Source: Deltaproteobacteria bacterium HGW-Deltaproteobacteria-19
GTDB taxonomy: Bacteria; Desulfobacterota; Syntrophia; Syntrophales; PHBD01
DNA: 64,000 nucleotides
NCBI GenBank assembly: GCA_002841865.1
Contig: PHBD01000003.1
Coordinates: forward strand, 1 to 64,000
Direction: 5' to 3'
Positions 10,124 to 45,128 of the stretch are shown in pieces. Position numbers and translations under genes: made by a program. The notes beneath the pieces are model-generated. The model ran no database searches. It was not told where the DNA came from and saw only the letters and a program-made list of their open reading frames with translations. The stretch's first letter is position 1. Each line of letters starts with the position of its first letter.

Positions 10124-12895
10124 TTATTTAAGATACCTCTCGATTCGACGAACGTATGGATGGTGTTGAACATCTGCGGCGCCAGCCTCTTCATGAACCA
10201 GAATACCTTTGAATCGGACCGGGGAAAGGCTCGGTGGCATGTGACCGGTGTTGGATTCATGGGCTGCGGTACCGAGTGAGCCGGCCAGTACAAAAGCGCC
10301 ATAGGACGATGGTGGGAAGCCTTTGGCCTTCAATGCATCGCGCGCAGCAATCCAAGCTGCACCAAAATCGCCGCTTCGAGCCTTCTTATGAAAAACCTCC
10401 ATGAAGCTCCGGGTGGCCACGTCTTCCACGGGCCAGAGGGTGCTCAGCACTGCGGATGCGCCTCCAAGATAGAAACTGCGCACCAGACCCAGCATCTCAT
10501 CTCCTTCGATGACCTGTCCCATTCCGGTCTCACAGGCAGAAAGCACGACCATCCGGGCAGACAGTGGCTGTTCAAACAGCCTTTCGGCGGTGAGTGGCGA
10601 AGCGTATTTGCCGTCGGTGAGGAAAAGCGCAGACAGAAGGGGGTAAAACGGGTCGTAGAGAGCATGGGATGCCAGATGCAGAACATCAACTCCCCTCCCG
10701 ACCTGGCGACGCAGCTCTTTCTCTGTGGCCTGACTGCCGAGCAAGGGTGAAGCGCCATAGCAACGAGACACCTCTATGGCCTCTTCGCGCGCCCCTGGCA
10801 ATGGGGGCAGGATGCCACCAAAAGCAGGATCTCCCACCACGACGGCGCGAGGTGTTGCCGCTGGCGGGATCGAAGCACGGGCCACCCATCCGCCGGTGGG
10901 AAGCACTGCCACCGGAAATGAAAGATCCAGTGCTCCCCAGGGGATAAAATGGAAATCCCCGCTTGGCACAAAGTAGACAGAACGGAATGAGCCCCATGAA
11001 TGCGGATCGAGTGCATCCGAGAGATCCTGCAACGTTGAACGCTGCACATCTGCGTTGCGGCCCGGGATTGCATCGTTGAAGTTCGAAAGTCGCTTCTTGA
11101 GCACCCCCGTTGTCACAGGCAGGTCTTTGAGCTTGACTTCCCTGCGAGTGATTACAAGCAGCCTTAGAGGATCACCACCCTGGCCGGGCAATGCATACAC
11201 AAGAGCAGTATCCGGTGGCAGCATCGATTGAGCCGACTCCAGACTTACTGCCGATACAGCCAGGACATCCGCCAGGTCCGGGTCACGCCGTCGAAGGTCG
11301 AGAATCAGGGCCAAACGCTTTTCAAGCAGACGTCGCTCCCGTGCGGCATCGACAGGGTCGCGGTTTGAGATCGCATTCTTGCGCCTTCGCTCCTCAAGGA
11401 TCTCCCTGTCGAGATCCCGAATCCTGCCGGTGATCGCTTCCTGCCGGCCTGTAGCGACCATTCGATTCGCCAGCAATGAGACAAACGCTCTGGCGCGTCC
11501 GCGCTCCAGGTCTTCGAACAGACGGGGCATGTCTCCATTGCGCAAGTTGATGCGCGCCAGGCCGGCGTTCACCGCTTCCTTGCCAATGCCGAATTGAACC
11601 TTGGCATCATCAAACACAAGCGTACCAGCCAGAAGGTCGATCACATTCTGAGCGCGCCTGAATTCCCGCTCAGCTTCATCCCATCGACCCAGGACAATCA
11701 GGGATTCTCCCCGCAATGCACTCAGCCGCCACTGATAGTCGAAGAAGCCTCCCTTTTCTGCGAGCACGAGGGCCTTCGCTGCCTGGGCTTCCGCGAGGTC
11801 GGGTCTTCGGGCAGCAATCAATGCATGTGTCTTGAAGGTTTCGATCAGAACTTCGCCGGAGCGGGAGCCAAGGGCGTCAAAGAACTCCCTGGCCCGGGCA
11901 AACATGATCTGTGACCGTTCGGACATCACATCGGTTGCAAGCAATGCCGTGCCTAATGTGGCCAGGCTCATCCCGCGGGCCCAGAACACCTCCTCCCAGG
12001 GCTGGAAGTAGAGTCCATACAAAGGATGCCGACCAACAAACATCACGTTGTTCATGGTCTGGTTGGCAAGTTCCAGCCAGGGTATTGCCTCCCTGTACCG
12101 AGCCTTGGCCATCAGTGCGAGACCGAGCACGATATCGGAACGCACCTGCGCAGCAGTGACACGTGCAAGCTCCACCTGGTCGATCGGGGGTATCGCGTAT
12201 GTCGAAGGAAAGCGCCAATCGCCGAGGGCGCGGATGACCTGCACTGCATCTTCCGATGCCCCGTCCAGATCGCCTGCCCAGTAGCGCGCTTCGGCACGCA
12301 GGGCGCGTGACCCGTGGTTCTTTCCCGTGGCTGCCAGTTCATGGCGCTGGGTACGTGCAGTCTCTTTCTCGGCCAGATCCGGGCGTCCTGTCATAAGCAG
12401 GGTCAGGACACGAAGGTACGAGGCTTGCCACAGAAGGGCAGGATCGCCCCTTTCATCAGCCAGGACCTTGTCCAGATACCCCAGGGCCGCCTCTCCTTTT
12501 CCAGAAAGGAATGCGAGCAGTCCCTGCTCGAATTCCAGGGTCACTGTAAAGTTGAAATAGTGCTTCGAACCCGCCTTGGCGGGTTCATACTTGTATGGCG
12601 GAATGTAAATGCTGGAAAGTTCCATCTTCAGCTTTGCAGAAGGAAGACCGGAGAGGAATTCAGCCTCGGTTTTTCTCAGGGCAAGACCTCTCACGCTGCC
12701 ACTGCGCACTCCCAGCAGGACTTGCCTGCTATGCGTTGTACCGGATGAGAGGGTTGCCTGCACAAGGGGTTGTTCTTCCTGCTCGGGGAGGACCGTGGTA
12801 GACGGTGCATACGGGACCAGTGGTATCGGAAGGAGGGGCACGGCACACCCCCATAATACCAGCATGGTCACGCACACCAAAAACATCCGGCTCAT
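10124..12895 (-). CDS. CHAT-domain (caspase-like) lipoprotein with TPR repeats
   Basis: A 923-residue protein. The N-terminus has a hydrophobic segment and a lipobox-like LVLWGC, so it should be lipid-anchored in the periplasm. The central part (about 100-550) is helical, with TPR-like repeats. The C-terminal 350 residues form a CHAT protease domain, with the catalytic His in LHLASHALYDP and the Cys in VVLSACETGMG. CHAT enzymes are caspase-fold proteases, some of which act in bacterial immunity; this one is probably an exported regulatory protease with unknown substrate. The start at 12895 is chosen because AGGAGG lies eight bases upstream. It diverges from a sigma-4-like gene. Confidence 0.85.
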   Translation of the reverse strand: MSRMFLVCVTMLVLWGCAVPLLPIPLVPYAPSTTVLPEQEEQPLVQATLSSGTTHSRQVLLGVRSGSVRGLALRKTEAEFLSGLPSAKLKMELSSIYIPPYKYEPAKAGSKHYFNFTVTLEFEQGLLAFLSGKGEAALGYLDKVLADERGDPALLWQASYLRVLTLLMTGRPDLAEKETARTQRHELAATGKNHGSRALRAEARYWAGDLDGASEDAVQVIRALGDWRFPSTYAIPPIDQVELARVTAAQVRSDIVLGLALMAKARYREAIPWLELANQTMNNVMFVGRHPLYGLYFQPWEEVFWARGMSLATLGTALLATDVMSERSQIMFARAREFFDALGSRSGEVLIETFKTHALIAARRPDLAEAQAAKALVLAEKGGFFDYQWRLSALRGESLIVLGRWDEAEREFRRAQNVIDLLAGTLVFDDAKVQFGIGKEAVNAGLARINLRNGDMPRLFEDLERGRARAFVSLLANRMVATGRQEAITGRIRDLDREILEERRRKNAISNRDPVDAARERRLLEKRLALILDLRRRDPDLADVLAVSAVSLESAQSMLPPDTALVYALPGQGGDPLRLLVITRREVKLKDLPVTTGVLKKRLSNFNDAIPGRNADVQRSTLQDLSDALDPHSWGSFRSVYFVPSGDFHFIPWGALDLSFPVAVLPTGGWVARASIPPAATPRAVVVGDPAFGGILPPLPGAREEAIEVSRCYGASPLLGSQATEKELRRQVGRGVDVLHLASHALYDPFYPLLSALFLTDGKYASPLTAERLFEQPLSARMVVLSACETGMGQVIEGDEMLGLVRSFYLGGASAVLSTLWPVEDVATRSFMEVFHKKARSGDFGAAWIAARDALKAKGFPPSSYGAFVLAGSLGTAAHESNTGHMPPSLSPVRFKGILVHEEAGAADVQHHPYVRRIERYLK

Positions 12896-12951
12896 TGCTG
12901 ACCTCCTGAGCATCTGGAATGTTATCAATCAATAACTCACTCAACTCCCAG

Positions 12952-16358: not shown

Positions 16359-17414
16359 TCACAGGGGACCTCGCTTCTCCCGGTGGATCTTCCGGGCGTT
16401 CTCGATGAGACGCGAGATGATCATGGAGGGCAGCATCCCCGCACTGGCGGCCTGCTCGAAGAAAAAGGACGAGGGGGCCATGCCCGAGGAGGAATTGGGA
16501 TCCGTGACGAGGATCCGGCCGTCGGTCGTGTAGAAGCCGTCGATCCGGCCGTAGGACCGGAAGCCGAGGGCATGGAAGGCCCGGAGCACCTCTTCCAGGA
16601 TCCGCTTGACCGCCTCCGGGGGGATGGTCTTGGGGGGTGTGAATTTGCGGCAGCGGCCCGGCATGTACTTGTCGTCGTAGGTGTAGAAGTCGCTCTGGGG
16701 ATGGATTTCCGTCAACCCCAGGGGCTCGATGACGCCGTCCTCCTCGAGGACGATGGAGGAAAACTCGACGCCCTCCAGGAATTCCTCCACCAGGACCGCG
16801 TTGTCCCACCGCAGGGCCTCGATCATGCCCGCGTCGAGGGAGGCCTCGTCCCGGATGATGGTGACGCCGATGCTGGATCCCTCGCGGGTCGGCTTGGTGA
16901 CGCAGGGCCACGGCAGGGCCTCCCGGATGCGCCGGAGGACTCCCTCCCGGTCCGACTCCCACTCGGCCCGGCGGACCATCAGGCTCCGCGGGACGTCCAG
17001 GCCCGCCTCCCGGAGGATCATCTGCTGGATGTGCTTGTCCATGCCCAGGGCCGACGCCAGGACGCCCGGTCCCGTATAGGGGATCCCGAGCAGCTCCAGG
17101 AGACCCTGGATGCACCCGTCGTCGCCGTACTTCCCATGGAGGGAGATGAAGGCGAAATCGATCTCTTTCCGGAGTTCTTCATAGGTAACGGGGCGCGCCT
17201 GCCGCTCGAGCTGCTCGGTGATGTCGACGGTCGTGTTCTGCGGGATGAGCTGCCAGGGTAGGATCCACAGGCGGCCCCGTTCGTCCATGAACAGGGGAAC
17301 CCCTTCGTAGAACTCGGGATCGAGGTTGTCGTGGACGTTCCGTCCACTGTTGAGGGAGACCTCCTTTTCCGAGGAAAGGCCTCCCATGATGATGCCGATT
17401 TTCAGTTTGTCCAT
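16359..17414 (-). CDS. D-alanine-D-alanine ligase family ATP-grasp enzyme, divergent
   Basis: 351 residues with the Ddl N-terminal signature GGLSSEKEVSLNSG, the central GKYGDDGCIQGLLELLGI and the ATP-grasp KPTREGSSIGV. The family joins two D-alanines for peptidoglycan. The metal-binding end motif is unusual: where Ddl has E-x-N-T-x-P-G-M, this protein has DPNSSSGMAPSSF, so the glutamate is Asp and the conserved proline is Ser. The key Asn remains. It may be a normal Ddl variant or a ligase for another D-amino acid or hydroxy acid. It lies 44 bases after an alanine racemase gene, which would supply D-Ala. Confidence 0.8.
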   Translation of the reverse strand: MDKLKIGIIMGGLSSEKEVSLNSGRNVHDNLDPEFYEGVPLFMDERGRLWILPWQLIPQNTTVDITEQLERQARPVTYEELRKEIDFAFISLHGKYGDDGCIQGLLELLGIPYTGPGVLASALGMDKHIQQMILREAGLDVPRSLMVRRAEWESDREGVLRRIREALPWPCVTKPTREGSSIGVTIIRDEASLDAGMIEALRWDNAVLVEEFLEGVEFSSIVLEEDGVIEPLGLTEIHPQSDFYTYDDKYMPGRCRKFTPPKTIPPEAVKRILEEVLRAFHALGFRSYGRIDGFYTTDGRILVTDPNSSSGMAPSSFFFEQAASAGMLPSMIISRLIENARKIHREKRGPL

Positions 17415-17458: not shown

Positions 17459-19402
17459 TCAGGAATCCCAGATAAAGGTGACGCCGCTGTTGGGGAAGAT
17501 CCACTCGTCGTCGGCGATGGTGAGCGTGGTGGCTTTGCCCTGCTCCCGGGCGACCCGCGGGTACGGGTGCTTGCCGGCGAAATAGCTGACTTCCCGGACG
17601 CGGCGAAGGTTTGCCTTCTCGTAATTGAAGGAAATCTGCAGCCCCCGGGTCGGGTAGGCGACGAATACTGAAAACAGGTTGTTTTTCTTTGACTTTTTCG
17701 TGGCGATCTCGAAGGCGAAGCGCACCGGACGGTTGAGCTTCTTCTTCAGAAGATCGCCGCCGCACCAGACCTCGAAGCCCCGGGGAGTGTTCTCCGCCCG
17801 GAGGATGGGGACGTCCTCCCCGTCGATCGTGACCCGCTCGATCCGGAAGTCCCGCTCCGTCACCGCCTCGTCGCCCAGGTTCAGGAGCCACCGGTACTCG
17901 CAGCGCTTCTCCTCGAAGAGGGCCTCCAGCTGCTCGTTGTTCATGGCGCAGCCGATCATGAAGACGGGCTCCCGGAGGGCCTTCGTGTACTCCACCCGGG
18001 TCAGAACCCGGAAGAACTCCCCCCGTTTGCGCTTCCCGTTCTCCGGAGAGGCCTCGGAGACCTCGATGTCGTAGCGGAAGCGGTCCCGGAGCTCCAGCTG
18101 CCGGTCCTCCTTCCCGAAGAGGGTCTCGAACATCTCCGAGAAAATGGCGTCCCCCATCTCCTCGCTCTGGGCCCGGGTCTGGAAGCAGTGGCGGATGATG
18201 CTGTCGATGCGGGCGACGGACTTCTCCTCCCCGGGGATGTAGATCCGCCGGAGGCGCGGCTCCACCGCATCGGCCCGGCCCTTCTGGACGAAGACCCGGG
18301 GAGCCCGCTTGCCGAGGGCACACAGGACGTCATAGCTGATCGTGTTCGTCCGGGCGGCGATCTCGTTGGCGGAGATGTACTCCGCCCCCTGCCGGCCCAT
18401 GAGAACCACCTCGTCGCCGATCCCGCAGTCGGGGATGCGGCTCACGTCGACGGTGCACATGTCCATGGAGATGCGGCCGACGATGGGCGCCCGCCGGCCG
18501 CGGATGAGGACTTCGCCTGCGTTCGACAGCATGATCCCGTACCCGTCTCCGTAGCCCACAGGAATCGTGGCGATGCGGGTGGGGCGGTAGGTGATGTAGG
18601 TGCGGTTGTAGCCGATGCTGTAGCCCTCGGGGAACTCCTTCAGGAGGACGACCCGCGTCTTGAAGCTCATGACGGGAGACAGGTCCGCCTTGTCCTTCGT
18701 GTCCGGCCCCGGGTAGATGCCGTAGGTCATGATGCCCGGCCGGACCAGGTCCAGGTTGTATTCGGGGAAGTTCAGGACGGCCCCGCTGTTGGACATATGC
18801 TTCAGGGGAATCCGGATCCCGTTTTCATCGAGCTTCGCCAGGAGGTCCCGGAAATGGGTCCACTGGCGATTGTTATAGTCCACCAGGATCTCGCTGGAGG
18901 ACAGGTGGGTGAAGATGCCCTCCAGGTCCAGGTTCGGCATGTCCAGGACCGTGCGGATCAGGTCGAGGGCCTCGTAGTGGATCGTTCCGCCGCGGCCCAT
19001 GCCCGTGTCCACCTCGATGTGCACGGAAACGCGGATGCCCGCCTTTCGGGCGCTCCTCTGCAGCTCCCGTGCGAAGGACGCGTCGGACACCGACGGCGTG
19101 AGGCCGTACTTGACGATCTGGCCGATCTCCGAATCCGGGGAGGGGCTGAGAATGACGACCGGGGAGGTGATGCCGCTGGCGCGGAGCTGGACACCCTCGT
19201 CTGCGTTGGCCACACCGAGCGCCCAGGCGCCGTTCCGGAGGGCGACGCTTGAGAGTTCGAGGGCGCCGTGGCCGTAGGCATCGGCCTTCACGACCTGCAT
19301 GATCCGGACGTCCGGGCCGACCAGGCGCTTCAGTTCCTCCCAGTTCCGGGAGAAGCTGTCGAGATCGACTTCGACCCAGCTTCTGTATTTCTGCTCTTCC
19401 AT
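17459..19402 (-). CDS. alr: Alanine racemase with unexplained 270-residue C-terminal extension
   Basis: 647 residues, against about 370 for ordinary Alr. Residues 1-375 are a complete PLP-dependent alanine racemase: Lys39 in VVKADAYGHG, the second catalytic Tyr in SIGYNRTY, and RPGIMTYGIYPG and VGRISMDMCTVDV. Residues about 380-647 match no family I recognise. This part starts with a helical segment rich in charge, contains two Cys (VFMIGCAMNN and EEKRCEYRW), becomes beta-strand-rich and ends in DDEWIFPNSGVTFIW. It has no MurF or Ddl motif. It heads the operon with ddl, the DUF2600 gene and the dpp permeases. Confidence 0.88.
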   Translation of the reverse strand: MEEQKYRSWVEVDLDSFSRNWEELKRLVGPDVRIMQVVKADAYGHGALELSSVALRNGAWALGVANADEGVQLRASGITSPVVILSPSPDSEIGQIVKYGLTPSVSDASFARELQRSARKAGIRVSVHIEVDTGMGRGGTIHYEALDLIRTVLDMPNLDLEGIFTHLSSSEILVDYNNRQWTHFRDLLAKLDENGIRIPLKHMSNSGAVLNFPEYNLDLVRPGIMTYGIYPGPDTKDKADLSPVMSFKTRVVLLKEFPEGYSIGYNRTYITYRPTRIATIPVGYGDGYGIMLSNAGEVLIRGRRAPIVGRISMDMCTVDVSRIPDCGIGDEVVLMGRQGAEYISANEIAARTNTISYDVLCALGKRAPRVFVQKGRADAVEPRLRRIYIPGEEKSVARIDSIIRHCFQTRAQSEEMGDAIFSEMFETLFGKEDRQLELRDRFRYDIEVSEASPENGKRKRGEFFRVLTRVEYTKALREPVFMIGCAMNNEQLEALFEEKRCEYRWLLNLGDEAVTERDFRIERVTIDGEDVPILRAENTPRGFEVWCGGDLLKKKLNRPVRFAFEIATKKSKKNNLFSVFVAYPTRGLQISFNYEKANLRRVREVSYFAGKHPYPRVAREQGKATTLTIADDEWIFPNSGVTFIWDS

Positions 19403-21925: not shown

Positions 21926-22001
21926 GCCGATGTAGCTCAGCTGGTAGAGCAGGCGATTCGTAATCGCCAGGTCAGGAGTTCGAATCTCCTCATCGGCTCC
22001 A
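21926..22001 (+). tRNA. tRNA-Thr (anticodon CGU)
   Basis: A 76-base cloverleaf with CCA encoded. The acceptor stem GCCGATG pairs with CATCGGC. The D arm is GCTCAGCTGGTAGAGC, the anticodon stem GGCGA/TCGCC encloses TTCGTAA (anticodon CGT), and the T arm contains GTTCGAATC. The 3' half from 21957 is duplicated at 28791-28839, where it marks the far end of an integrated element, so this copy is the reconstituted functional gene. Confidence 0.97.
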
Positions 22002-22005
22002 GGGA
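21957..22005 (+). repeat. attL: 3' half of tRNA-Thr
   Basis: A 49-base direct repeat running from the anticodon loop to four bases beyond CCA, identical to 28791-28839. It keeps the tRNA gene intact at this end. Confidence 0.95.
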
Positions 22006-22013
22006 AATCAAGG

Positions 22014-22037
22014 GGTTACAACTTCAGGGTTGTAACC
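22014..22037. repeat. Inverted repeat GGTTACAA/TTGTAACC beside attL
   Basis: GGTTACAA (22014-22021) and TTGTAACC (22030-22037) flank eight bases and overlap the integrase stop codon. The motif TTTTGTAAC recurs at about 22069 and near the other end at 28668. These may be arm-type integrase sites or a terminator of the integrase gene (the stem is followed by TTTT on the plus strand). Confidence 0.4.
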
Positions 22038-23093
22038 TTTTGTGCTTTTTGGAGCCCATTGTAACCGTTTTGTAACTGTCCGGCCTGCTGATCGCTGAAT
22101 TGCTGCCGCTTCCGGGCCGCTTCCTTCAAGTCCTCCTGCGAGACGATGTTGTAGCGGTCGAACACGCTCCGGGTCTTGTGACCAGAGATGGTCATAGCCA
22201 CCCGTTCGGGGATGCCTGCCCGAATCATGTTCCTAACGCCACTGCGCCTCAGATCATGAAAGAGCAGTCCCGGCCTGCCTATTTTCCCGCATGCTGTTGC
22301 CCATACCTTGCGGAAGTCGCCAATAGGCATGCCCCTTCTGTGGAAGACGTGAAAACAATCCATCCTCCGATTCCGGTACACAAACTTCATCATTGCCAGA
22401 AGGTCAGACTCCATGTAGAGGGTCCGTCCCTCTCCGTTCTTGGTCTCGCCGGGTTCCAGCCTCACGATACCGTCCTTAAGGTTCACGTGGCTCCACTTTA
22501 GTCCGATAACCTCTTCCCTTCGCCATCCGGTGAAGTAGGCAAAGGTCAACACGGGCTTGAGGTAGTCAGGCAATGCAGCAAGCAACGCCAGATAGTCTTC
22601 ATGCTCGATGAAACCCTTTCGGACGTTGTTCTCCTTCAGCATCAGGATGAAAGGAACCTGTGCGATCTTCGGTGGTGTGCACTGGATTGCGAGATTGAAG
22701 GCCCGCTTGAGCGCTGCCAGTTCACGGTTCACCGAAGCGTTGGCCATCCTCTCGGTAAGACGCTTGTCGATGTAACCCCTGATTCGGGAAGTATCGACAT
22801 CAACAACTCTCATGCCTCCGAAGACCTTGGATAGCAGAGACACACTCCACTCGACCTTACGCAGAGATCACTTACCGTTGATCCGGTAGTCCGTGAGCAA
22901 GTCATCAAACAGCTCGTCAATCTTGACCCGCTCAAAGCAAAGCCCCGGCAACTTCCCTTGAGAGATTTCACCTTCCCGAAGCTTCAAGAGCCTCTTCGCT
23001 ACCTCCATTTTGTCACTGTTGCTAGACTCGGCAAAAGCCTTACCGTTCCGATAATACTTGATCCAAAGGGTCTTTCCGCGCCTATATATGCAT
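22016..23093 (-). pseudogene. Tyrosine integrase, interrupted by stop and frameshift
   Basis: The catalytic half (from 22843, GTG) is intact in sequence: Arg in TGWRREEV, His-x-x-Arg in FHDLRRSG and Tyr in SVFDRYN. The arm- and core-binding N-terminal part continues in the same frame upstream (IYRRGKTLWIKYYRNGK to LLTDYRINGK) but is cut by an in-frame TGA at 22868-22870, exactly inside the core-binding domain. The only ATG at the proper N-terminal position (23091-23093) is in the wrong frame, so a second lesion (one-base shift) is likely. Without the N-terminal domains the enzyme should not recombine its sites. Readthrough of TGA is possible but unsupported. Confidence 0.85.
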
Positions 23094-23554
23094 CAATAAT
23101 CCCGCCGCATTCCTCAAATCCACCCGGAACCGACGATCTACCCAACCCTTGGTCTTCCCCTCATGTCCCGCTCGGATCGCTGATCCTTGCCCGGGAATCA
23201 GGGCTGGCGCGATCTGTTGCTGGAAAAACCGGCGATGTTTTCTTTCGGGCGCTTCGATCATGCCAGTGTCATGCCTCTCGTCTACACAAGGCGAAGAAGC
23301 GTTATGTGTTCGGAACATCATGATAGCATATCATTATAATGCTTGCTTTTTTGATAATCAGGTAGTATCGGTCCATCAATGTGTCGGTTGTGCTTCGGTG
23401 TTGGACGCTAAACCAGACTGAAGGGAACTGTCATGCTCTGAAAATCAATGAACCCCGCTTTCCTGTGAAGGCGGGGTTTTCTATTGGTGATACTCAGTAA
23501 TCCCCATAACGATAATTCACAATGACACTGGTTCTAAAGGAGGGGCTCATACAA
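23094..23554. other. Gene-free AT-rich stretch before the STAND gene
   Basis: Small open frames exist on both strands but none has a ribosome site plus recognisable protein features. One left-reading frame of 79 codons (23082-23321) ends in the integrase start region and looks like chance. The stretch holds the hairpin terminator at 23451-23480 and presumably the STAND gene promoter, which I cannot place convincingly. Confidence 0.5.
23451..23480 (+). terminator. Intrinsic terminator upstream of the STAND gene
   Basis: AACCCCGC (23451-23458) pairs with GCGGGGTT (23471-23478), with TTTT after it. It would insulate the STAND gene from transcription entering from the tRNA side, or act as a leader attenuator. 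Confidence 0.75.
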
Positions 23555-26500
23555 ATGGGTAATATTAGAGTTAATGATCAATTTCAGTCAGATAAGGAAA
23601 TCGAAGCCGCTAAAATGGAAATTATGGACTTAACCAAGATTGCTTCGACATTCCCCCAGATAGAAAAACCAAGCATCAATCGTGAAACCATAATTATGAC
23701 ACTCGCCGATATGCTCAGTAATGACACAGAAGTTGTCATTGTCAACGGACCAGATGGTATTGGCAAAACGACTCTACTTTCCCAGTTTGCTAGGGAATTC
23801 CCCAATAATTCATTTAGCTTGTTTGTCCGCTCGTGTAGTCGATATGCATATGACTCTGTGATGCTTATGAGAGACCTTTGTAACCAGATAGGATGGGTTC
23901 TCAAGAAAGGCACCTACGGCGGTGGAATAGACGTTGATCTTGGGCAATTATTTAATGGACGGCTTTATGATCTTCAAAAGCAAGCTAATTTAGAACGGCA
24001 AACATATTACTTCATTGTTGATGGATTAGAGGAGATCCCCGAAGAGGATTGTCATGAGAGAGATATGATCCTGAATCTTCTCCCATTCGGCATCCCTCGT
24101 TTCCGGTTTATTTTATCAGGACCACTTGAGTCTCTGAATAAACGATCGCAGAAAATCAATGGAATAGTCCCTTTCATATTGATCGGGTTCACTTTTGAAG
24201 AAACGCGCGCATATTTTGAGGGTCTCGTTGATGATCGCTCACAATTGGAATTCATTCATAAAATGTGTAAGAGGCAACCGGGGAATTTGGCTAGCATGCG
24301 ACGGTTATTACAGTCAGGTAAAAGCCTAGATGATCTATTGGAAGAATTTCCTAAATCGCCTCCAGAGTGGTTTGAATTAGAATGGCGAGTTGTTGAAAAT
24401 GACGATCATGTGTTGCGCCAAGCTCTAGCTATTCTTGCATTTGATCGACGCTATCATTCCATAGAAAGCCTTTCTAGGCTGTGCAAAACTGATCCCGTCG
24501 AACTAGAAAAGAGACTAGCACGCTGTAGTTTTGTCGAGCGTCGAAATGAGGGCCATAGTATAGAGTATGTCTGCGATGTATTCAAACGCTTCGCCATGAA
24601 TAGACTGTCTACAATACGTCGAGACGTATTAGATCTAGTAATCTCCGAGCTATTGGTAACTCCTGAAAGCGCTGATGCGCTAACAAATTTACCCAGTGTT
24701 CTCCATGAGGCAGGCCGATATGATGAATTACTTAATTATCTTTCTCCTATGCACATTGGTCGCCTTATTGATTGTGGAGACTCATGGGTTCCACTTCATC
24801 AGAAAGCAGAACTTGGTGTTGAGACTGCTCTTAGCCTGTCACGCGATGGCGATCTACTGAGATTCGGACTTCAAAGAGCTATGATTGCGAGCATCGAGAA
24901 TGCTGAACCATGGCGTTCTGAAATTGAGGCTTATGTAGCGCTTGATGATTTCTCGGCAGCCCAAGCTCTAGTCCAACGAATGGTTACGAAAGAAGATCGC
25001 CTTCAGCTACTTGCGGTAATCACGAAGGCAAAAAAGATGAAGTCTATACCTATCGAGATAGAGTTAAATGACCAAATCCATCAACTTTATCGCATGATTG
25101 ACCGCAAGAGTCTCGGTGACCGAGGAATCGAGATTGCTTCGGACTTACTCTATACGCATCCTGAACTGGCAATAGAACTTGTTCAGGAGTGTGCCGGCAA
25201 AGAACGATCAGAGGACAGACTAGATTTGGCCCTAGCAAAGCTCTCTGTTAATGCATTTGTGAAGAGACAAGAACACCTTGAAAATATGATGTCAACGCAA
25301 GAGGCTCTTAGTGCAAAGGTAAAGGATCCGAAAATTCAAAAATTCATAAACACCATATCAATCTTCTTTGGCGAATACACCGCTGAAGGAATTGTAAACG
25401 ATGTGAATAAATGGGAAAAATCTGCAGATCGAATTTATGCACTGACGGCATGGGCTGCTGTTAATGCAGAACGGCCGGACTCCGCGATTGTCTTAGAACA
25501 TGCTTTGAATACAATTCTTAAAGCAACAACATACACGGCCAATGCCAAAGTTTATAAAGACTTAGCTTTGCCACTGGTGCATATGCCTGACCTAGGGCAA
25601 GTAAAGGTGTTCATTGGTAGATTTGATGGATTGAAAGGTCCTATCGAATCTGCAGGCCCAACTGTTGAGTATGTGGCACTCCAAGGAACTTTAGCCGAGG
25701 CAGAAGCACGATATGACAAAAATGCCGCCGCTGATCGTTTACTAGATTTATTCATCTACTTGGATTCCTTAGCAGATCCGGGAACAAAACTAGAAGCTTT
25801 TGCTATTTTGGCATGTGCTCTAAAAATAATAGATCAAGATAAGATGTTTGAAGGGAGTCATGGGATACATTCTGCTACACTGGATGGCTTAAAGACAGTG
25901 GTCGATGAAATCCTTATGACCACGGCAGACCATTATAAAGCTGTTCGCCCTGCGATTGCGGCATTAACGCGAAGTGATAAGATAATTGCGCTGGAAGTTA
26001 TTAACAGGCTAAATACGTTAACATCACGGGAGTCGGCACTTGTAAGATTTATGAGTGCCGCAGCTGCAGAGCATCCTTCAGAGTATAATTTTTCAATGCT
26101 GGCAAAAGCATATAATAGAATTAGAACCATACCAAAACGTGCGAAGGCAACGCATGCGGTCATAAGGGGATTGTTGAGTCAAAATAAGAACATGTCTGTC
26201 TTCATTACTAATTTAACGGATTTGGCTCCGTGGGTCATGGACATTCCTGATGCCGAGGAGAAATGCCAGGCCATTTGCGAGCTTTATGAGATCCTCATTG
26301 AGCATAAGAATACTATTTCAACTTCAATACTTGAAACATTGCTTAAAGAACTGGAAATTGTCTGGGCTAAAATTGATTCTGGTTGGGCTAGGGTAAATAC
26401 TGGTTTCAAAATAGTTGCCATAATGGCTAAATGTTCTCCTGATGTGAGCCGTGATTTCTTGGCAAAAACTATAAAGGAAAGAAATGAAATCATTTTGGAT

Positions 26501-28543
26501 TGCAAAGATACGGCAATGAGCTACATCTTTTGTATATATCTTACTATCCGTTGCTTTAGTGGTTTGATAAAGCGCAAACTCTATAAAGAGGAAGACTTTC
26601 AAGTACTTGAAGAACTCATAAATAACATCCCCTCCATCGGTGTTCACGCTGCGATATGGAGCAACCTAGCATTGAAGTGCCTCATTGCAAATGACAAAGA
26701 CCGTTGTCTGAAAATTGTATCAGATCATGTTCGCCCGATATCAGATTCTGATCTCATTGGCGATGAAGAGACGCGGTGGCGTGTAATCACATCCGTTGCG
26801 CCAACTTTATACAGCTGTCATCCAGGTTCGACCAGACAGTTGTTAAACAAACTACCAATGCCTTACAAAGACGAGGCTTATTATGATATATGTTCATTCC
26901 TGATTAACAATGAAGTTCCCTCCGAGATTTACGATTATGCAAACAAATCATCCAATAGAATCGATTATGACATATTTATTGATGTTTACGAAGCCATGAT
27001 GAATTGTGAAGCAGATGATATAGTATATCACACATTAAAGTCACTTGTGGATAACATTTATAAACGTCTGCGGAAAGAATTCAGTAAAATTCAGATTACA
27101 GATATTCTGCAAAAGTTAAAGACTCTGATTGACATTAAATTACCTAATCCCGACTACATAAAGCACGAGGGGTACAAAATTCTTGCAGAGGCTCAAATAG
27201 CAAGATTGGAACGTGACAAGAACTCTTGGGATAATTTCATATCGAGGGCAAGGTTAATTCCTAATATCGCTGACAGAGCTTTTGTTCTGATGGCAATAGC
27301 CGACATTATGCAGAAGCCGGAAAAAGCTTCTACGCTGTTTAAGGAAGCGAGGGCATTAATTACAAAAATGTCTTCTTTTGAGGATCGCTATAATCATTAT
27401 AAGCACTTGGCTGATATATGTGCCTATACTGACAAGCAGTTGAGTAAGGATTGCCTGCAACAAGCATGGAATGAAACAACGCCAATGGACCTCGCAGATC
27501 TTCCGAAATATCGGCGTCGTATTATTGATTTAGCCCATAGAATTGATCCCGAGTTCGCGGCTAGCTTAGCATCTGAGTCCGATGATGATCCTGGGCGGGA
27601 ATTTGCTAGGAGGCAGGCAAAAGAGCGTATTGAACTACTGAAACAACGAGAACAGGTTTCTTCCGGTGATAAGGAAACATTGAAATCAGAACAAGATAAC
27701 GAACATTGTAAAGAATTGGCGAAGATGATGTTAGCTGGACTCAATTCCAACAGAATTAATCCAGTTCACATTGAGTTAACAAGGCCTTACATAAACCAGG
27801 CCAGTCGAATGAATCTGCAGGATGCGTTTGATGTGTTCGCTTGGGTGATTGAAAATGCCGTACGCCGGTATTCGGATACTGAGCATGTTAACACTTTTCT
27901 GCGTCCTCTTCACGAAGCTTCTAGGTTGTCCGCCGAATTAGCTTTTAGGATTGCAGCTCGTATTCGCTCTATTAATGACTCGGGAATCTCAGCAACACGC
28001 CACACAGAACTATCCATTACTAATGTCATTCACACAGGGGAACGGGAAAAAGCCTTAACTCTTCTGAAGGAATTTGCACTTAAGTCATCTGGCTTCATCA
28101 AGATCACAGACCCATACTTTGGACTTGATGAACTTGAGATAGTTAAGTTGATTCGGAGTCAGAATTCGACTGTGCCAATCTACATCGTTACTAGTCGAAA
28201 GCATCAACAAGATGCTCACGTCCCGCAACCTTGGGATGATGCATATCAATCGCATTGGCGAATGGCGATTTCCGATTCTGATCCAGGTGAAGTCACTCTG
28301 ATAATGGTTGGCAGGGGTTCGCTAGGGCAACATCCGATTCATGATCGTTGGTGGTTGTCAGAAAATGGCGGAGTCAGAATAGGGACCTCCCTAAACTCAA
28401 TTGGTTGCGGGAGAATCTCCGAAGTATCTCCGATTTCAGAGACTGATGCGCATGCTCTCATGGTAGAAGTAGATCAGTGCATCTCAGGCCAAATTGTCAC
28501 ACGCATTGGTGAAAATATTCGTCATTCATCTTTCAGGCTCTAA
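23555..28543 (+). CDS. Giant STAND NTPase with C-terminal PLD/MIT_C-like domain (candidate defence protein)
   Basis: About 1662 residues. A short N-terminus precedes a NACHT/AAA-type P-loop domain: Walker A GPDGIGKTT (Lys71), Walker B YYFIVDGLEE (Asp156) and sensor-like FRFILSGP. Residues about 300-1480 are helical repeats, the usual STAND target-sensing scaffold. The last 150 residues carry KITDPYF (Asp1519), PIYIVTSRK, then IHDRWWL (His1596) and GVRIGTSLNSIG. This pattern resembles the phospholipase-D-like MIT_C fold and is the likely effector. The ATG at 23555 is chosen because AAAGGAGG precedes it; an ATG 11 codons upstream has no ribosome site. Low GC and an island location fit an Avs-like antiviral sensor, but target and activity are inferred. 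Confidence 0.8.
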   Translation: MGNIRVNDQFQSDKEIEAAKMEIMDLTKIASTFPQIEKPSINRETIIMTLADMLSNDTEVVIVNGPDGIGKTTLLSQFAREFPNNSFSLFVRSCSRYAYDSVMLMRDLCNQIGWVLKKGTYGGGIDVDLGQLFNGRLYDLQKQANLERQTYYFIVDGLEEIPEEDCHERDMILNLLPFGIPRFRFILSGPLESLNKRSQKINGIVPFILIGFTFEETRAYFEGLVDDRSQLEFIHKMCKRQPGNLASMRRLLQSGKSLDDLLEEFPKSPPEWFELEWRVVENDDHVLRQALAILAFDRRYHSIESLSRLCKTDPVELEKRLARCSFVERRNEGHSIEYVCDVFKRFAMNRLSTIRRDVLDLVISELLVTPESADALTNLPSVLHEAGRYDELLNYLSPMHIGRLIDCGDSWVPLHQKAELGVETALSLSRDGDLLRFGLQRAMIASIENAEPWRSEIEAYVALDDFSAAQALVQRMVTKEDRLQLLAVITKAKKMKSIPIEIELNDQIHQLYRMIDRKSLGDRGIEIASDLLYTHPELAIELVQECAGKERSEDRLDLALAKLSVNAFVKRQEHLENMMSTQEALSAKVKDPKIQKFINTISIFFGEYTAEGIVNDVNKWEKSADRIYALTAWAAVNAERPDSAIVLEHALNTILKATTYTANAKVYKDLALPLVHMPDLGQVKVFIGRFDGLKGPIESAGPTVEYVALQGTLAEAEARYDKNAAADRLLDLFIYLDSLADPGTKLEAFAILACALKIIDQDKMFEGSHGIHSATLDGLKTVVDEILMTTADHYKAVRPAIAALTRSDKIIALEVINRLNTLTSRESALVRFMSAAAAEHPSEYNFSMLAKAYNRIRTIPKRAKATHAVIRGLLSQNKNMSVFITNLTDLAPWVMDIPDAEEKCQAICELYEILIEHKNTISTSILETLLKELEIVWAKIDSGWARVNTGFKIVAIMAKCSPDVSRDFLAKTIKERNEIILDCKDTAMSYIFCIYLTIRCFSGLIKRKLYKEEDFQVLEELINNIPSIGVHAAIWSNLALKCLIANDKDRCLKIVSDHVRPISDSDLIGDEETRWRVITSVAPTLYSCHPGSTRQLLNKLPMPYKDEAYYDICSFLINNEVPSEIYDYANKSSNRIDYDIFIDVYEAMMNCEADDIVYHTLKSLVDNIYKRLRKEFSKIQITDILQKLKTLIDIKLPNPDYIKHEGYKILAEAQIARLERDKNSWDNFISRARLIPNIADRAFVLMAIADIMQKPEKASTLFKEARALITKMSSFEDRYNHYKHLADICAYTDKQLSKDCLQQAWNETTPMDLADLPKYRRRIIDLAHRIDPEFAASLASESDDDPGREFARRQAKERIELLKQREQVSSGDKETLKSEQDNEHCKELAKMMLAGLNSNRINPVHIELTRPYINQASRMNLQDAFDVFAWVIENAVRRYSDTEHVNTFLRPLHEASRLSAELAFRIAARIRSINDSGISATRHTELSITNVIHTGEREKALTLLKEFALKSSGFIKITDPYFGLDELEIVKLIRSQNSTVPIYIVTSRKHQQDAHVPQPWDDAYQSHWRMAISDSDPGEVTLIMVGRGSLGQHPIHDRWWLSENGGVRIGTSLNSIGCGRISEVSPISETDAHALMVEVDQCISGQIVTRIGENIRHSSFRL

Positions 28544-36289: not shown

Positions 36290-38539
36290 ATGATGGAACA
36301 GACGTACACGGCGAAACAGGTCGCAGAGATCGTCGGCGCATCACGGGTCACCATCATGCGCCGGGCCAAGAAAGAGAACTGGACCTTCGTTACCAAGAAC
36401 GGAAAGGGCGGCCCTCAAAACGAGTACCCCCTCCCTTCTCTTCCGGCCGACATCCAGGAGGCCATCATTAATAAGGAAGGCGCCCGCCCGGAACTGCTCC
36501 CCGTCCTGACGCCCGCAGCGGCTGCCAAGGCGGTTGAAGTCCTCCGGCAGGAAGGAAGCCCGGCGCCGGCGCCGATGGAGCTGCCCACTATGACCCAGGC
36601 CATGACGGAACCGCGTCCCTCCTGGACCGCCGAGACGGCCATCAGCGAGCAGGATCTGCAGAACGAGCGGGTCCGGAACATCCTCGCCATCCTCCGGGAG
36701 GCGGAGACGGTCCCGCGGATCTGGACGAAGGGCAAGCGAAAGTGGATCGAGGCCGTGGCCTTCAAACACGGTGTCACCTGGCAGGCCATCTACCGCTGGA
36801 TGAAGAAATACGACCAGCGGGGCATCGCCGGCATCTGTCACCGAAAATCATCGAAGGACCAGCCCCGGAAATGGACCCCCGAGGCGGTGGACTTCTGGAT
36901 CTCCCTCTGTGCGAAGCGGGAGCACCGGGCCATGAAGCGCCGAGACCTGTACGATATCCTCGTGGTCGAGGCAACACGGCGGGGCTGGCGGATCGGCGGG
37001 TACGAATCCGCCAACTGGTGGTTCGATAAACGCTGGAATCCCCTCATGGAGGCCATGCAGAAGGGCGGCCTCCGGGCACTGGACAACGTCTTGCCCCCGG
37101 TCCTCCGGGATTATTCCGATCTGGCCCCCTTCGAGATCATCGTTGGCGACCAGCACCGGTTCGACCGCTGGGTGGTGGACGAGGAGACCGGCGAGGTCTA
37201 CCGGCCGGAAGGCTACGTCTGGCAGGATCTCCGTACCCGGGTAATCTACGGCGCCGCGGTCGACCGCCGGTACGACGCCTGGCTGATCGGCCTGGCCCTC
37301 CGGATCGGTGTCGCCTGCTACGGCGCCTTCACCAGCGTCTACACCGATAACGGAAAACCCGAGTGCTCGAAGTTTCTCACGGGGATCCTGGCGAACCTCC
37401 GCTCCCTGGGGATGGAATGGGAACGCACCTCCGAGGTCATGATGGACGTCCTGGACCTGGACGGGGAGGACATCGCCCCGAACATCATCCTCCCGGGGAC
37501 CCACCGGAAGGCCGTCGTCAAGAACGCCAAGGCCAAGATGATCGAGAAGACCTTCGACAACCTGGAGACGATCATGGCCAGCCGCCTGGCCCTCCCCGGG
37601 CACACGAAACGCCTCAGCGACGATATTCATGCCCAGGACATCGACCAGCAGGAAGCCCAGGCCCTGGCCAAGTCCGGCAAGCTTCTGACCGCCCGGGAAT
37701 TCGCCCTGGCGATGTATCGGGCCTGCGATCACTACAACCGGACGAAGTCCCACCGGGGCGTCCTTCGGGAATGGTCCTGGAAGCCGCGGCCGAAAGAGGC
37801 CACCCCCTACGACTGCCTGAAGGCCTGCTACGAGGAGGGATGGCGCCCCCGGATGATCTCCTCCGAGGCAGCGGACCTGATCTTCCTGGCCCGGGGCAGC
37901 CGGACCGTCCACATGGGCCGGATCGCTTTCGACAACGATTTCTACGAACACGACGCCCTCCTGGAGCTCCACAAGGAGAAGGTCGACCTTCGGTACAACC
38001 CCATGACGATGGACGAGCTCCACGTCTTCCGGGGCGGCCGGTACCTCTGCACCGCCGTCCCGGTGGAGCGGTCCAGCATGAAGGACATGGACCTGGCGGC
38101 CCGTAAGATCGCCGAGAAACGGGAGCGGAGGAAACGCTTCGCCGAGGAGTTTAAGAGGATCTCCTCCCTGGCCCCCGACTTCCGGGAATACTCGAAGGTC
38201 CCCGAGATGGAACGGGCGGCGGCGATCATAGGCGAGGACCGGAAGCGCCGGGCCATCGAGCAGAAGGAATTCCACCGGCCCCTGACCCAGGAAGAGCTGG
38301 ACCGGGCGGTCGAGCGGATGGAGCAGGGGGTCCCCTTGCCGGTAAAGACATCGAAACCCCTGCCGGGCCGTCCGACCTACTTCCTGGACGACTTCAGCCG
38401 GTTCGAGTGGATCATGAACTTCCTCCAGGCCGGGGGCACCCTGGCGGAGGAAGACGAGGCCTTCCGGACCCGCTATATGGCGGGCCTCACGGAAGGACAG
38501 CGGGATTATTGGGACTCTTATGTATCTTATGGAGGCTGA
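36290..38539 (+). CDS. Mu-type transposase A (DDE)
   Basis: 749 residues. An N-terminal Mu-type winged helix (about 1-70, YTAKQVAEIVGASRVTIMRR) is followed by a second helix-turn-helix region (about 120-230), the catalytic core with Asp287 (IVGDQHRFD), Asp353 (VYTDNGKPE) and Glu419 (KMIEKTFDN), and the Mu C-terminal domain with a basic tail that in Mu contacts MuB. It cuts and joins the phage ends to target DNA. ATG 36293 is an equally possible start because the AGGAG lies very close to 36290. Directly upstream of B, as in all Mu relatives. Confidence 0.95.
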   Translation: MMEQTYTAKQVAEIVGASRVTIMRRAKKENWTFVTKNGKGGPQNEYPLPSLPADIQEAIINKEGARPELLPVLTPAAAAKAVEVLRQEGSPAPAPMELPTMTQAMTEPRPSWTAETAISEQDLQNERVRNILAILREAETVPRIWTKGKRKWIEAVAFKHGVTWQAIYRWMKKYDQRGIAGICHRKSSKDQPRKWTPEAVDFWISLCAKREHRAMKRRDLYDILVVEATRRGWRIGGYESANWWFDKRWNPLMEAMQKGGLRALDNVLPPVLRDYSDLAPFEIIVGDQHRFDRWVVDEETGEVYRPEGYVWQDLRTRVIYGAAVDRRYDAWLIGLALRIGVACYGAFTSVYTDNGKPECSKFLTGILANLRSLGMEWERTSEVMMDVLDLDGEDIAPNIILPGTHRKAVVKNAKAKMIEKTFDNLETIMASRLALPGHTKRLSDDIHAQDIDQQEAQALAKSGKLLTAREFALAMYRACDHYNRTKSHRGVLREWSWKPRPKEATPYDCLKACYEEGWRPRMISSEAADLIFLARGSRTVHMGRIAFDNDFYEHDALLELHKEKVDLRYNPMTMDELHVFRGGRYLCTAVPVERSSMKDMDLAARKIAEKRERRKRFAEEFKRISSLAPDFREYSKVPEMERAAAIIGEDRKRRAIEQKEFHRPLTQEELDRAVERMEQGVPLPVKTSKPLPGRPTYFLDDFSRFEWIMNFLQAGGTLAEEDEAFRTRYMAGLTEGQRDYWDSYVSYGG

Positions 38540-42751: not shown

Positions 42752-44515
42752 TTACCTGCCCATACTTGCTCTCAGTTCTGCCAGTGCCTCGGCAATCTCC
42801 CGCCCCTTGTTTTCGATAATGCGGATCAGGTCTTCGGGTGTCCGCTCGTCTACTTCCGGCTTCCTGTTCGGGTTCACGGCCTTAAGGTCGTAAACTGCAT
42901 CCTCAATCTCCTGGGCCTTGGAAGCCAGTTCCCGCGCTTCGCGTGTTAGTTCCTTGGTCTTCCCATCCGCTTCCATGATGGCTTTTTCATCGCGCGGGGT
43001 GGCCTTTTTCAGGTCCTTGAGCCGTTCATTCCATTGTGCCGCTTGCTGGCCCTTGGTCGTGGCCTGCTCTTTAAAAGGCCGGGCCTCCTCAGCAGCGACA
43101 CGCTTGCGTTCGTCGATGTCCACGGTCCAAGACAAATCACTGTCGGCCCGTGTCGGCAACAACTCGAAAAATCTATCGAAGTGATTGATCGTCAGAGGTG
43201 TTTTCTTGCGAACCTTGATGTCCGTCAGGTCGTAATACCAGATTTTTTGTGTCTGCTGGCCCTTGGTAAAGAAAAGAAGGTTCGTTTTAACACCCGCGCC
43301 TGCCGCCGTAAACACGCCGCCCGGCAGACTGACCAAGCACCACAGATCACAGTCATCAAGCAGTTTACGCTTGGTTTTGACGAAAGCATCTTCATTGGTG
43401 CGGAACAGAAGCCCCTCGTCGAGAACGATACCGCACCGGCCTCCATCTCGCAGGCAGCGGATTACATGCTGAAGAAATAGCACCTGCGTCGCGCCGGTCT
43501 TATAGTCAAAGTTGGTCTGGGCTTCCTTGCCTTCCTTGCCGCCGAAAGGCGGGTTGGTCAGGACCACATCGAAGGTCTGCGGCGCTCCTTCAAATAGTCC
43601 GCCGTATATTTCCATTCCCGTTAGCGTGTTGCCGTGCCAGAGGTTCGGCTTGTCTATGCCGTGCAGGACGAGGTTTGCGAGGGCGATGGGATAAATAAGG
43701 TTTTCTTTTTCCCTGCCCCAGAATGACCTCTGTTTGAGCGTTTCCAGTTGGTCAGCCGTGGCTTCGTTGCCGAGCTTTCCCGTGATGTTCTCGAAGCTCT
43801 GGGCGAGGAAACCACCTGTCCCGCACCCGGGATCATAAATAGTCTCATCTGCCTTGGGGTTGATGACCTGGACCATCGCCTTGATAACTTGGCGCGGGGT
43901 GAAAAACTGCCCGCCGTCGTTACCCTTCTCGCCCATCTTCAGGAGCAGTCCCTCATATACTTGCGACAGTGTGAAGACATGCGTCTGATCCACCGCCTCG
44001 GCGGTTAGCTGGTCCACCTTGTCCAGCACATCCAGAAAGTTCCGCTCCGTGTCGATTCGCACCCGCTCGACGCCTGTCATGATCTCGCTGATGACTTTCT
44101 GGCGTGGGGAGGCATCAGATAGGTTCTTCAAACCTTTTAAGTGCGGCAGCAATTCTGTATTGACGAAGTTGAAAAAGGCGTTTTGCGGTGAGTCTTGCAG
44201 TTCGACTCGCTTGTTGGTCTGCCCCTCCAGCAGAGTCTCCGGCGGTGCCGCCCAGTCTCGCCAGCAATAAGGCGCTACCAGCGAGGCCCTGAAAGGCACA
44301 CCCAGTGCCTCGGACTCCTGTTCCTCGCGTTTTTCTTTCTCGTCGAGGATGCGCAGGAAAAGAATCCAGGTCAGTTCGGGGACATATTGCATAGCCCCTG
44401 CGCAGTTGCCGCGGCGCATGATGTCGCAGATGCTCTTGACCGCCTGATCAACCGATTGCTGGGTGGCAAGTCGTTTTCCGTTACCGTTGTTATTTTTCTT
44501 TCGTCCTCGTGCCAT
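42752..44515 (-). CDS. hsdM: Type I restriction-modification methylase HsdM
   Basis: 587 residues. An N-terminal HsdM_N domain (about 20-150) is followed by the N6-adenine methylase core with SAM motif DPGCGTGGFL and catalytic NPPFGG. A long charged coiled coil (about 470-587) ends the protein and probably contacts HsdS. It needs HsdS to find its site. It starts one base after the hsdS stop. It is part of an R-S-M operon reading against the phage genes, so it is cargo with its own promoter. Confidence 0.95.
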   Translation of the reverse strand: MARGRKKNNNGNGKRLATQQSVDQAVKSICDIMRRGNCAGAMQYVPELTWILFLRILDEKEKREEQESEALGVPFRASLVAPYCWRDWAAPPETLLEGQTNKRVELQDSPQNAFFNFVNTELLPHLKGLKNLSDASPRQKVISEIMTGVERVRIDTERNFLDVLDKVDQLTAEAVDQTHVFTLSQVYEGLLLKMGEKGNDGGQFFTPRQVIKAMVQVINPKADETIYDPGCGTGGFLAQSFENITGKLGNEATADQLETLKQRSFWGREKENLIYPIALANLVLHGIDKPNLWHGNTLTGMEIYGGLFEGAPQTFDVVLTNPPFGGKEGKEAQTNFDYKTGATQVLFLQHVIRCLRDGGRCGIVLDEGLLFRTNEDAFVKTKRKLLDDCDLWCLVSLPGGVFTAAGAGVKTNLLFFTKGQQTQKIWYYDLTDIKVRKKTPLTINHFDRFFELLPTRADSDLSWTVDIDERKRVAAEEARPFKEQATTKGQQAAQWNERLKDLKKATPRDEKAIMEADGKTKELTREARELASKAQEIEDAVYDLKAVNPNRKPEVDERTPEDLIRIIENKGREIAEALAELRASMGR

Positions 44516-44516
44516 A

Positions 44517-45128
44517 TCAAATCTCCCCGTCGAATGCCCGGCGCATTAGAGCCGCCGGCAGGGCGTTGATTGTTTGTAGCTCTTCTTCAGCTGCCATACG
44601 GCCTTTCTCCACTATCGCCATCTGTCTTTTGAGTAAACCCGCGATGCGCCGTTGTTCCGCAAGAGGTGGGAGGGGGATTTCGAGTTGTTCAAGGTCATGT
44701 CGGCTTATTGCTTCAAATGTGCTTCCTGCACCCTTCTCAGTTAAATGACTCTCGAAATGGCGAATGGCAAAGAGAATGAAATCGCGATCTGAATTGCCTC
44801 CGCACCGAATCGCCGCGAGTCCTCGACCAATGCAGCATTTCACATCGGCGACGTTGGTTGGCCCTACCGGTGCCCTCACAGAAATAAGAATATCGCCCGG
44901 AAGGGCAACCTTTTTCGGCTCAACGCACCAAACGCGTGGAACAGGGTTCAAAAGGCCAAAATCTGCCTTGCCTTGAAAGAAAGGTAATCCTTCGGGAATC
45001 TTTCGATAGGTTGAACCAGGAGGTGACTGCCCAGCAATTATATCGCATACCTCCCCCAGCCTCCCCCAGCGCCAGCCCTCGGGGAGTTTACTTTTTGCTT
45101 CTTTCGCCTGTTTTGTGTCCACATTCAT
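44517..45128 (-). CDS. hsdS: Half-size type I specificity subunit HsdS (one TRD)
   Basis: 203 residues, half of the usual about 400. It has one target-recognition domain (about 17-150: LPEGWRWGRLGEVCDIIAGQ, then LPFFQGKADFG and LISVRAPVGPTN) and one conserved helix (about 155-203, IPLPPLAEQRRIAGLLKRQM). Half HsdS proteins can dimerise and read a palindromic bipartite site. Truncation of a longer gene is the alternative, but the frame ends cleanly with MRRAFDGEI, a normal HsdS C-terminus. It overlaps the hsdR stop by four bases. Confidence 0.88.
   Translation of the reverse strand: MNVDTKQAKEAKSKLPEGWRWGRLGEVCDIIAGQSPPGSTYRKIPEGLPFFQGKADFGLLNPVPRVWCVEPKKVALPGDILISVRAPVGPTNVADVKCCIGRGLAAIRCGGNSDRDFILFAIRHFESHLTEKGAGSTFEAISRHDLEQLEIPLPPLAEQRRIAGLLKRQMAIVEKGRMAAEEELQTINALPAALMRRAFDGEI

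Follow-up and report, generated by a model that had tools for sequence, protein, structure and literature searches.

The window analysed here, a stretch of 64,000 nucleotides from Deltaproteobacteria bacterium HGW-Deltaproteobacteria-19 (GTDB order Syntrophales; contig PHBD01000003.1, positions 1 to 64,000), carries on its reverse strand a 647-codon open frame that begins with ATG (17459-19402) and encodes an alanine racemase continued by a long C-terminal extension. The gene, its parts and its two immediate neighbours are the following:

17459..19402, (-) strand: alanine racemase fusion gene, encoding 647 aa from an ATG start; single PF00842 match in the source genome
18710..19369, (-) strand: Ala_racemase_N (PLP barrel), residues 12-231; Pfam PF01168, E 4.7e-65
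18293..18673, (-) strand: Ala_racemase_C, residues 244-370; Pfam PF00842, E 1.1e-46
18089..18289, (-) strand: conserved linker with a helical hairpin, residues 372-438; helices predicted at 394-411 and at 414-429, of low confidence in both models
17462..18088, (-) strand: predicted beta-sandwich domain, residues 439-647, from alignments A1 and A2 and the AlphaFold2 model; M1 aminopeptidase N-terminal-like fold
16359..17414, (-) strand: D-alanine--D-alanine ligase (Ddl) gene, 44 bases downstream of the racemase; Pfam PF01820 and PF07478
19543..21798, (-) strand: CHASE2-adenylate/guanylate cyclase gene, 140 bases upstream of the racemase; Pfam PF05226 and PF00211

A first-pass annotation made from the sequence had called the racemase part complete and the extension an addition rather than a substitution, and both statements hold. 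The two Pfam domains are covered near end to end (profile positions 1-220 of 220 for PF01168 and 1-126 of 127 for PF00842), so the racemase is complete, and the NCBIfam model TIGR00492 ("alr") scores 353.7 bits over residues 8-372, where its cut-off is 168. By this curated cut-off and by both Pfam domains being whole, the protein classifies as an alanine racemase; at E <= 10, Pfam finds the two racemase families in the 647-aa protein and nothing else. Among solved structures, 49 PDB sequences of 356-417 aa match at E <= 1e-20, and the nearest of them, 4y2w and 4luy, align from residue 7-9 to residue 371. Given these lengths and this end of the alignment, residues 372-647 are an addition: the fusion has the entire catalytic protein in common with the known enzymes (TIGR00492; 4y2w, 1sft), whereas these are too short to contain its 276-residue C-terminal module.

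All 63 fused proteins of alignment A2 share the residues K39, R137, R221, Y265, M313, D314 and Y357. We take K39 to be the PLP lysine and Y265 the catalytic tyrosine, as in the Geobacillus enzyme, and the pair expected of an alanine racemase is thus present without exception. Y357, which presumably has a role in the choice between alanine and serine, is kept, and this argues for alanine, not serine, as the substrate. That the fusion racemises alanine is predicted from its racemase-family membership and its catalytic residues. Position 130 (window 19013-19015), seven residues before R137, is occupied by glutamate in all 63 Syntrophales enzymes aligned. Most racemases have a carbamylated lysine there, for which the Bacillus anthracis racemase substitutes asparagine plus chloride (PMC2743695). 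E130 would be a genetically fixed negative charge beside the PLP-binding arginine and would serve the same job as the carbamylated lysine.

The extension (residues 372-647) measures 276 aa and ends in ...DDEWIFPNSGVTFIWDS, in agreement with the roughly 270 residues and the C-terminal sequence first described, but it contains four cysteines instead of the two originally counted. Two of them, C485 and C501, occur without exception in the 63 fused proteins, whereas C406 is shared by 62 and C547 by 58 of these. Further conserved motifs of the sandwich are CEYR (501-504), which is invariant, and the near-invariant YPTRG (583-587) and WxFPxSGVxFxW (634-645). The earlier impression that the extension matches no nameable family is borne out by searches at permissive thresholds, which found no sequence family in Pfam, NCBIfam, PHROGs or PADLOC, and its profile has no match among PDB sequences. 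Two weak hits were discarded, namely DUF2808 (E 0.1 in one of 28 extension members, attributed to chance) and SMYD2, the sole phmmer match in the PDB (E 0.5 to 1.4). Judged by its sequence, the extension holds a domain without a name in the libraries searched, and search listings of the literature on alanine racemase C-terminal extensions or added domains and on the Syntrophus racemase yielded no description of this fusion.

An AlphaFold2 model of the extension built from 28 sequences (pLDDT 77.9, pTM 0.72) shows two low-confidence helices (model residues 25-61) and a beta-sandwich mostly at pLDDT 80-95. Structural comparison with VIA-align matched this sandwich to lpg2210 (4g2a; Z 11.8), to the putative protease BDI_1141 (3kd4; Z 11.5), which we take to be a DUF3857 protein, to oligosaccharyltransferase chains that are presumably ribophorin I (Z ~10.5), to the TFIID chain 7edx_B (presumably TAF2; Z 10.5) and to many M1 aminopeptidases (Z ~10). 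These matches cover residues ~434-647, with 145-173 residues aligned at an rmsd of 3.1-3.8 and 7-14% identity. Foldseek also retrieved M1 aminopeptidases (E ~1e-5, probability 1.00), with a TM-score of only 0.33-0.38 of the query, and a viral structure library yielded three matches at E <= 0.001, an M1-like aminopeptidase and two uncharacterised giant-virus proteins. The predicted sandwich has the saddle-like shape of Peptidase_M1_N, and the model points to a fold similar to that of the N-terminal parts of M1_N (PF17900), DUF3857 (PF12969), ribophorin I and TAF2 proteins, not to family membership.

Sequence comparison gives no support to a descent from M1 peptidases or DUF3857. None of the 28 extension members matches PF17900 at E <= 1, and neither they nor the full protein match PF12969. 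Profile-profile comparison by hhalign gave the extension a probability of 0.9% against 12 M1_N sequences (12 of 17 PF17900 loci fetched) and of 0.2% against 18 DUF3857 sequences (18 of 20 loci), in a test that is weak for such distant folds, as the control pair of M1_N and DUF3857 itself reached only 19.9%. Unlike M1_N-type proteins, the sandwich has no Pfam match or profile-profile similarity and is not joined to a peptidase domain: no catalytic M1 domain is found in the 647-aa protein by Pfam at E <= 10, and M1_N was absent from 10 of 10 Syntrophales genomes tested. A full-length model from 63 rows has a mean pLDDT of 77.9 and a pTM of 0.52, with residues 376-399 below 50; given this pTM and the poor linker, we claim no arrangement of the domains.

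Within the surveyed class, which we take to be Syntrophia, order Syntrophales, the extension was detected at E <= 0.001, as a full or partial match, in 139 of 155 genomes. These represent 53 of 53 genera and include 90 of 92 good assemblies; a few of the 139 matches are incomplete or broken in frame, whether at a contig end or elsewhere (e.g., G045, G044, G056 and G107). Among relatives, 89 of 100 genomes carry it, and 71 of 72 good assemblies. The 16 class genomes without a match are explained by their assemblies, since 13 have no PF00842 match at all and in the other three (G098, G130 and G147) this match runs to within 5, 0 and 2 bases, respectively, of the sequence end. No intact racemase without the extension was found in the class, these 16 genomes included; wherever an assembly contains both parts, they are joined. 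In 16 of 16 genomes chosen across it the fused gene is the sole PF00842 match. Of 138 stretches found by a pattern scan of named genomes, 118 were confirmed, and the record titles among the best 80 of these 118 read Syntrophaceae, Syntrophales, Syntrophus, Smithella or something broader (such as Deltaproteobacteria). The name given here to the class rests in part on these titles.

That a sequencing or assembly error fused two genes is vanishingly improbable, as the same joined frame occurs in independent genomes of 53 genera, and identity to the window's extension is 46 to 94% across 28 aligned ones. Both of the explanations that the first-pass annotation had held against its own observation, a known family and a sequencing-error fusion, thereby fall away, and the observation of a racemase with an extension is confirmed, well beyond what chance would give. 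The module was most simply gained once, before the lineage diversified.

Outside the class, the extension profile returned from 394 phylum genomes 17 genomes of the same order and one marginal match (G498; E 0.003 over 34 residues), which by eye falls inside a hybrid histidine kinase, between its receiver domain and its helical C-terminal part, and was rejected as chance. A survey of racemases matched 283 of 296 phylum genomes, with frame lengths available for 150 rows among the matches listed. The 12 class rows have frames of 649-700 codons, and 136 of the 138 non-class rows have frames of 258-493; the two longer ones owe their extra length to N-terminal sequence only (a long upstream frame in G370, MurF-Alr in G434) and were rejected as carriers of the extension. 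Other phyla were covered by the pattern scan, which detects close relatives, and a distant relative could exist there. Mobile or viral relatives were found neither in 72,556 plasmid records nor in 50,697 phage records at E <= 1, and 20 stretches of viral contigs that fit a pattern encode none.

Two known forms of racemase joined to another protein part differ from the Syntrophales fusion. VanT membrane serine/alanine racemases (NF033131, NF033132) likewise join a racemase domain to another domain, but their extra part is an N-terminal membrane domain, whereas here the racemase begins at residue 8 and the additional part is C-terminal; the fusion scores below both VanT cut-offs (341.7 against 460 and 212.9 against 900, respectively). 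In MurF-Alr (PRK11930, NF008897) the partner MurF is also N-terminal, and the Syntrophales fusion has no MurF part, matching NF008897 only from profile position 454 on with 324 bits against a cut-off of 804. MurF-Alr does occur in the same phylum, in the genome G434 mentioned above, where it was named by eye from the frame sequence.

Conservation was measured on 71 fused proteins, that of the window and 70 others with frames of 600 aa or more from a set of 86 loci. Their mean pairwise identity amounts to 0.683 for the racemase, 0.759 for residues 372-436 and 0.568 for residues 437-647. Among the stretches compared in the 63 rows of alignment A2, 412-438 shows the highest conservation (0.89 to 0.93), and 26 of the 209 sandwich positions are invariant. 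In a Nei-Gojobori comparison with the sister species G001, dN/dS is 0.115 for the racemase, 0.14 for the sandwich and 0 for the linker, the last being a rough zero from only 65 codons (dN 0, dS 0.096). The extension is under purifying selection.

Gene neighbours were counted among the best 80 of 118 named loci wherever enough flanking DNA was present. The cyclase adjoins the racemase upstream in 46 of 67 loci; Ddl adjoins it in 43 of 71 and is missing or elsewhere in 28 of 71, and loci of the Smithella type have no ligase neighbour and retain the extension. A link to D-alanine use is thus frequent, not obligatory. In 23 of 61 loci the racemase is followed downstream by two D-Ala-D-Ala ligase genes, and these often flank a gene for a conserved protein of ~260 aa (L034, L035, L042, L104 and others), of which the one member scanned, from L034, has no Pfam match; the genes after the second ligase in such loci are presumably Mla-like transport genes.

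The window contains several other features that we record as side observations. A tRNA-Thr gene followed by a phage-integrase gene (21926-22843) suggests that a mobile element starts just upstream of the racemase operon. Further along lie a frame of 1673 codons with low GC3 (0.38) and no Pfam match at E <= 1e-5 (23522-28543), genes for an N6-adenine methylase and a restriction helicase that form a restriction-modification system in the putative mobile region (42752-47617), and a phage Mu F-like protein in one frame with a match to dinitrogenase reductase ADP-ribosyltransferase (DRAT; 53565-55829, E 2e-11). The latter is situated within a possible Mu-like prophage together with a Mu transposase (36290-38539). 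On the other side of the racemase, 10124-12928 encodes a 934-aa protein with a CHAT protease-like domain at its C-terminus.

As to what the extension does, we tentatively propose a docking or regulatory module that couples the production of D-alanine to its use, a reading that we consider possible at somewhat less than even chances. The single housekeeping alanine racemase of Syntrophales carries a two-part C-terminal module, of which the highly conserved linker would pack on the racemase dimer near the entryway or on a partner, while the sandwich would provide a surface by which the racemase docks to a D-alanine consumer or to envelope machinery. The first candidate for this consumer would be the adjacent D-Ala-D-Ala ligase, and D-alanine would thereby be made where and when it is used. 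This proposal is favoured by the presence of the module throughout the lineage on a sole racemase, by a linker more conserved than the catalytic domain, by the fold match of the sandwich to domains that are non-catalytic parts of larger proteins and by the adjacency of Ddl in 43 of 71 loci. The linker's low confidence in a single-chain model despite its conservation would be expected if a dimer or a partner were needed for order, but it may simply reflect shallow alignments. Against the proposal stand the 28 of 71 loci at which Ddl is not adjacent, including those of the Smithella type that retain the extension, and the moderate similarity of the predicted fold by Foldseek (TM-score 0.33 to 0.38), which no profile similarity to M1_N or DUF3857 accompanies. 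An extended version, in which a regulatory or scaffolding domain confined to Syntrophales makes the sole racemase the hub of a complex leading from D-Ala to D-Ala-D-Ala, with the linker gating the entryway, the sandwich docking the ligase or an envelope protein and the supply of D-alanine controlled at this point, seems unlikely to be right in full.

The same conservation could instead be read as that of an allosteric sensor, with the sandwich binding a small molecule (D-Ala, D-Ala-D-Ala, a UDP-muropeptide or a nucleotide) and the linker relaying this to the active site. Such a role would suit the position of the most conserved part directly after the racemase, the polar and aromatic motifs CEYR, YPTRG and FPxSG, which are invariant or near-invariant and resemble a surface or pocket, and the cyclase gene upstream in 46 of 67 loci; we nevertheless hold it to be rather doubtful, as the extension has no likeness to any ligand-binding family in Pfam or NCBIfam and the cyclase is not adjacent everywhere. 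A purely structural module, which would make the racemase dimer more stable or larger and play no part in regulation, would fit the lock-in of a domain of single origin that is kept throughout the lineage, and the sandwich is indeed less conserved than the racemase (0.568 versus 0.683). However, a linker conserved beyond the catalytic domain and 26 invariant sandwich positions in 209 exceed what a buttress usually needs, so that we judge this explanation distinctly unlikely. Least probable by function is a second enzyme, with D-alanine or a cell-wall precursor as its substrate, or a module that binds a metal via its conserved cysteines (C485 and C501 throughout, C406 and C547 nearly so): we see no catalytic signature, cysteines can be buried structural residues, and the best fold matches are non-catalytic N-terminal parts of larger proteins, a likeness in the model that speaks mildly against a module acting on D-alanine, one of the three possible roles (sensing, binding or acting on the product) that the first-pass annotation had suggested.

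As an enzyme of cell-wall synthesis, alanine racemase is essential, a drug target and otherwise very uniform in architecture, and in the anaerobic Syntrophales it has been rebuilt across one whole bacterial lineage. The predicted sandwich would add a sequence-unrelated example of the M1_N-like fold, here joined to a PLP enzyme. A sole racemase with an obligatory 276-residue module suggests that D-alanine is controlled or channelled at a step where this kind of control is not assumed. The Syntrophales fusion offers a clean test system for the role of a racemase tail.
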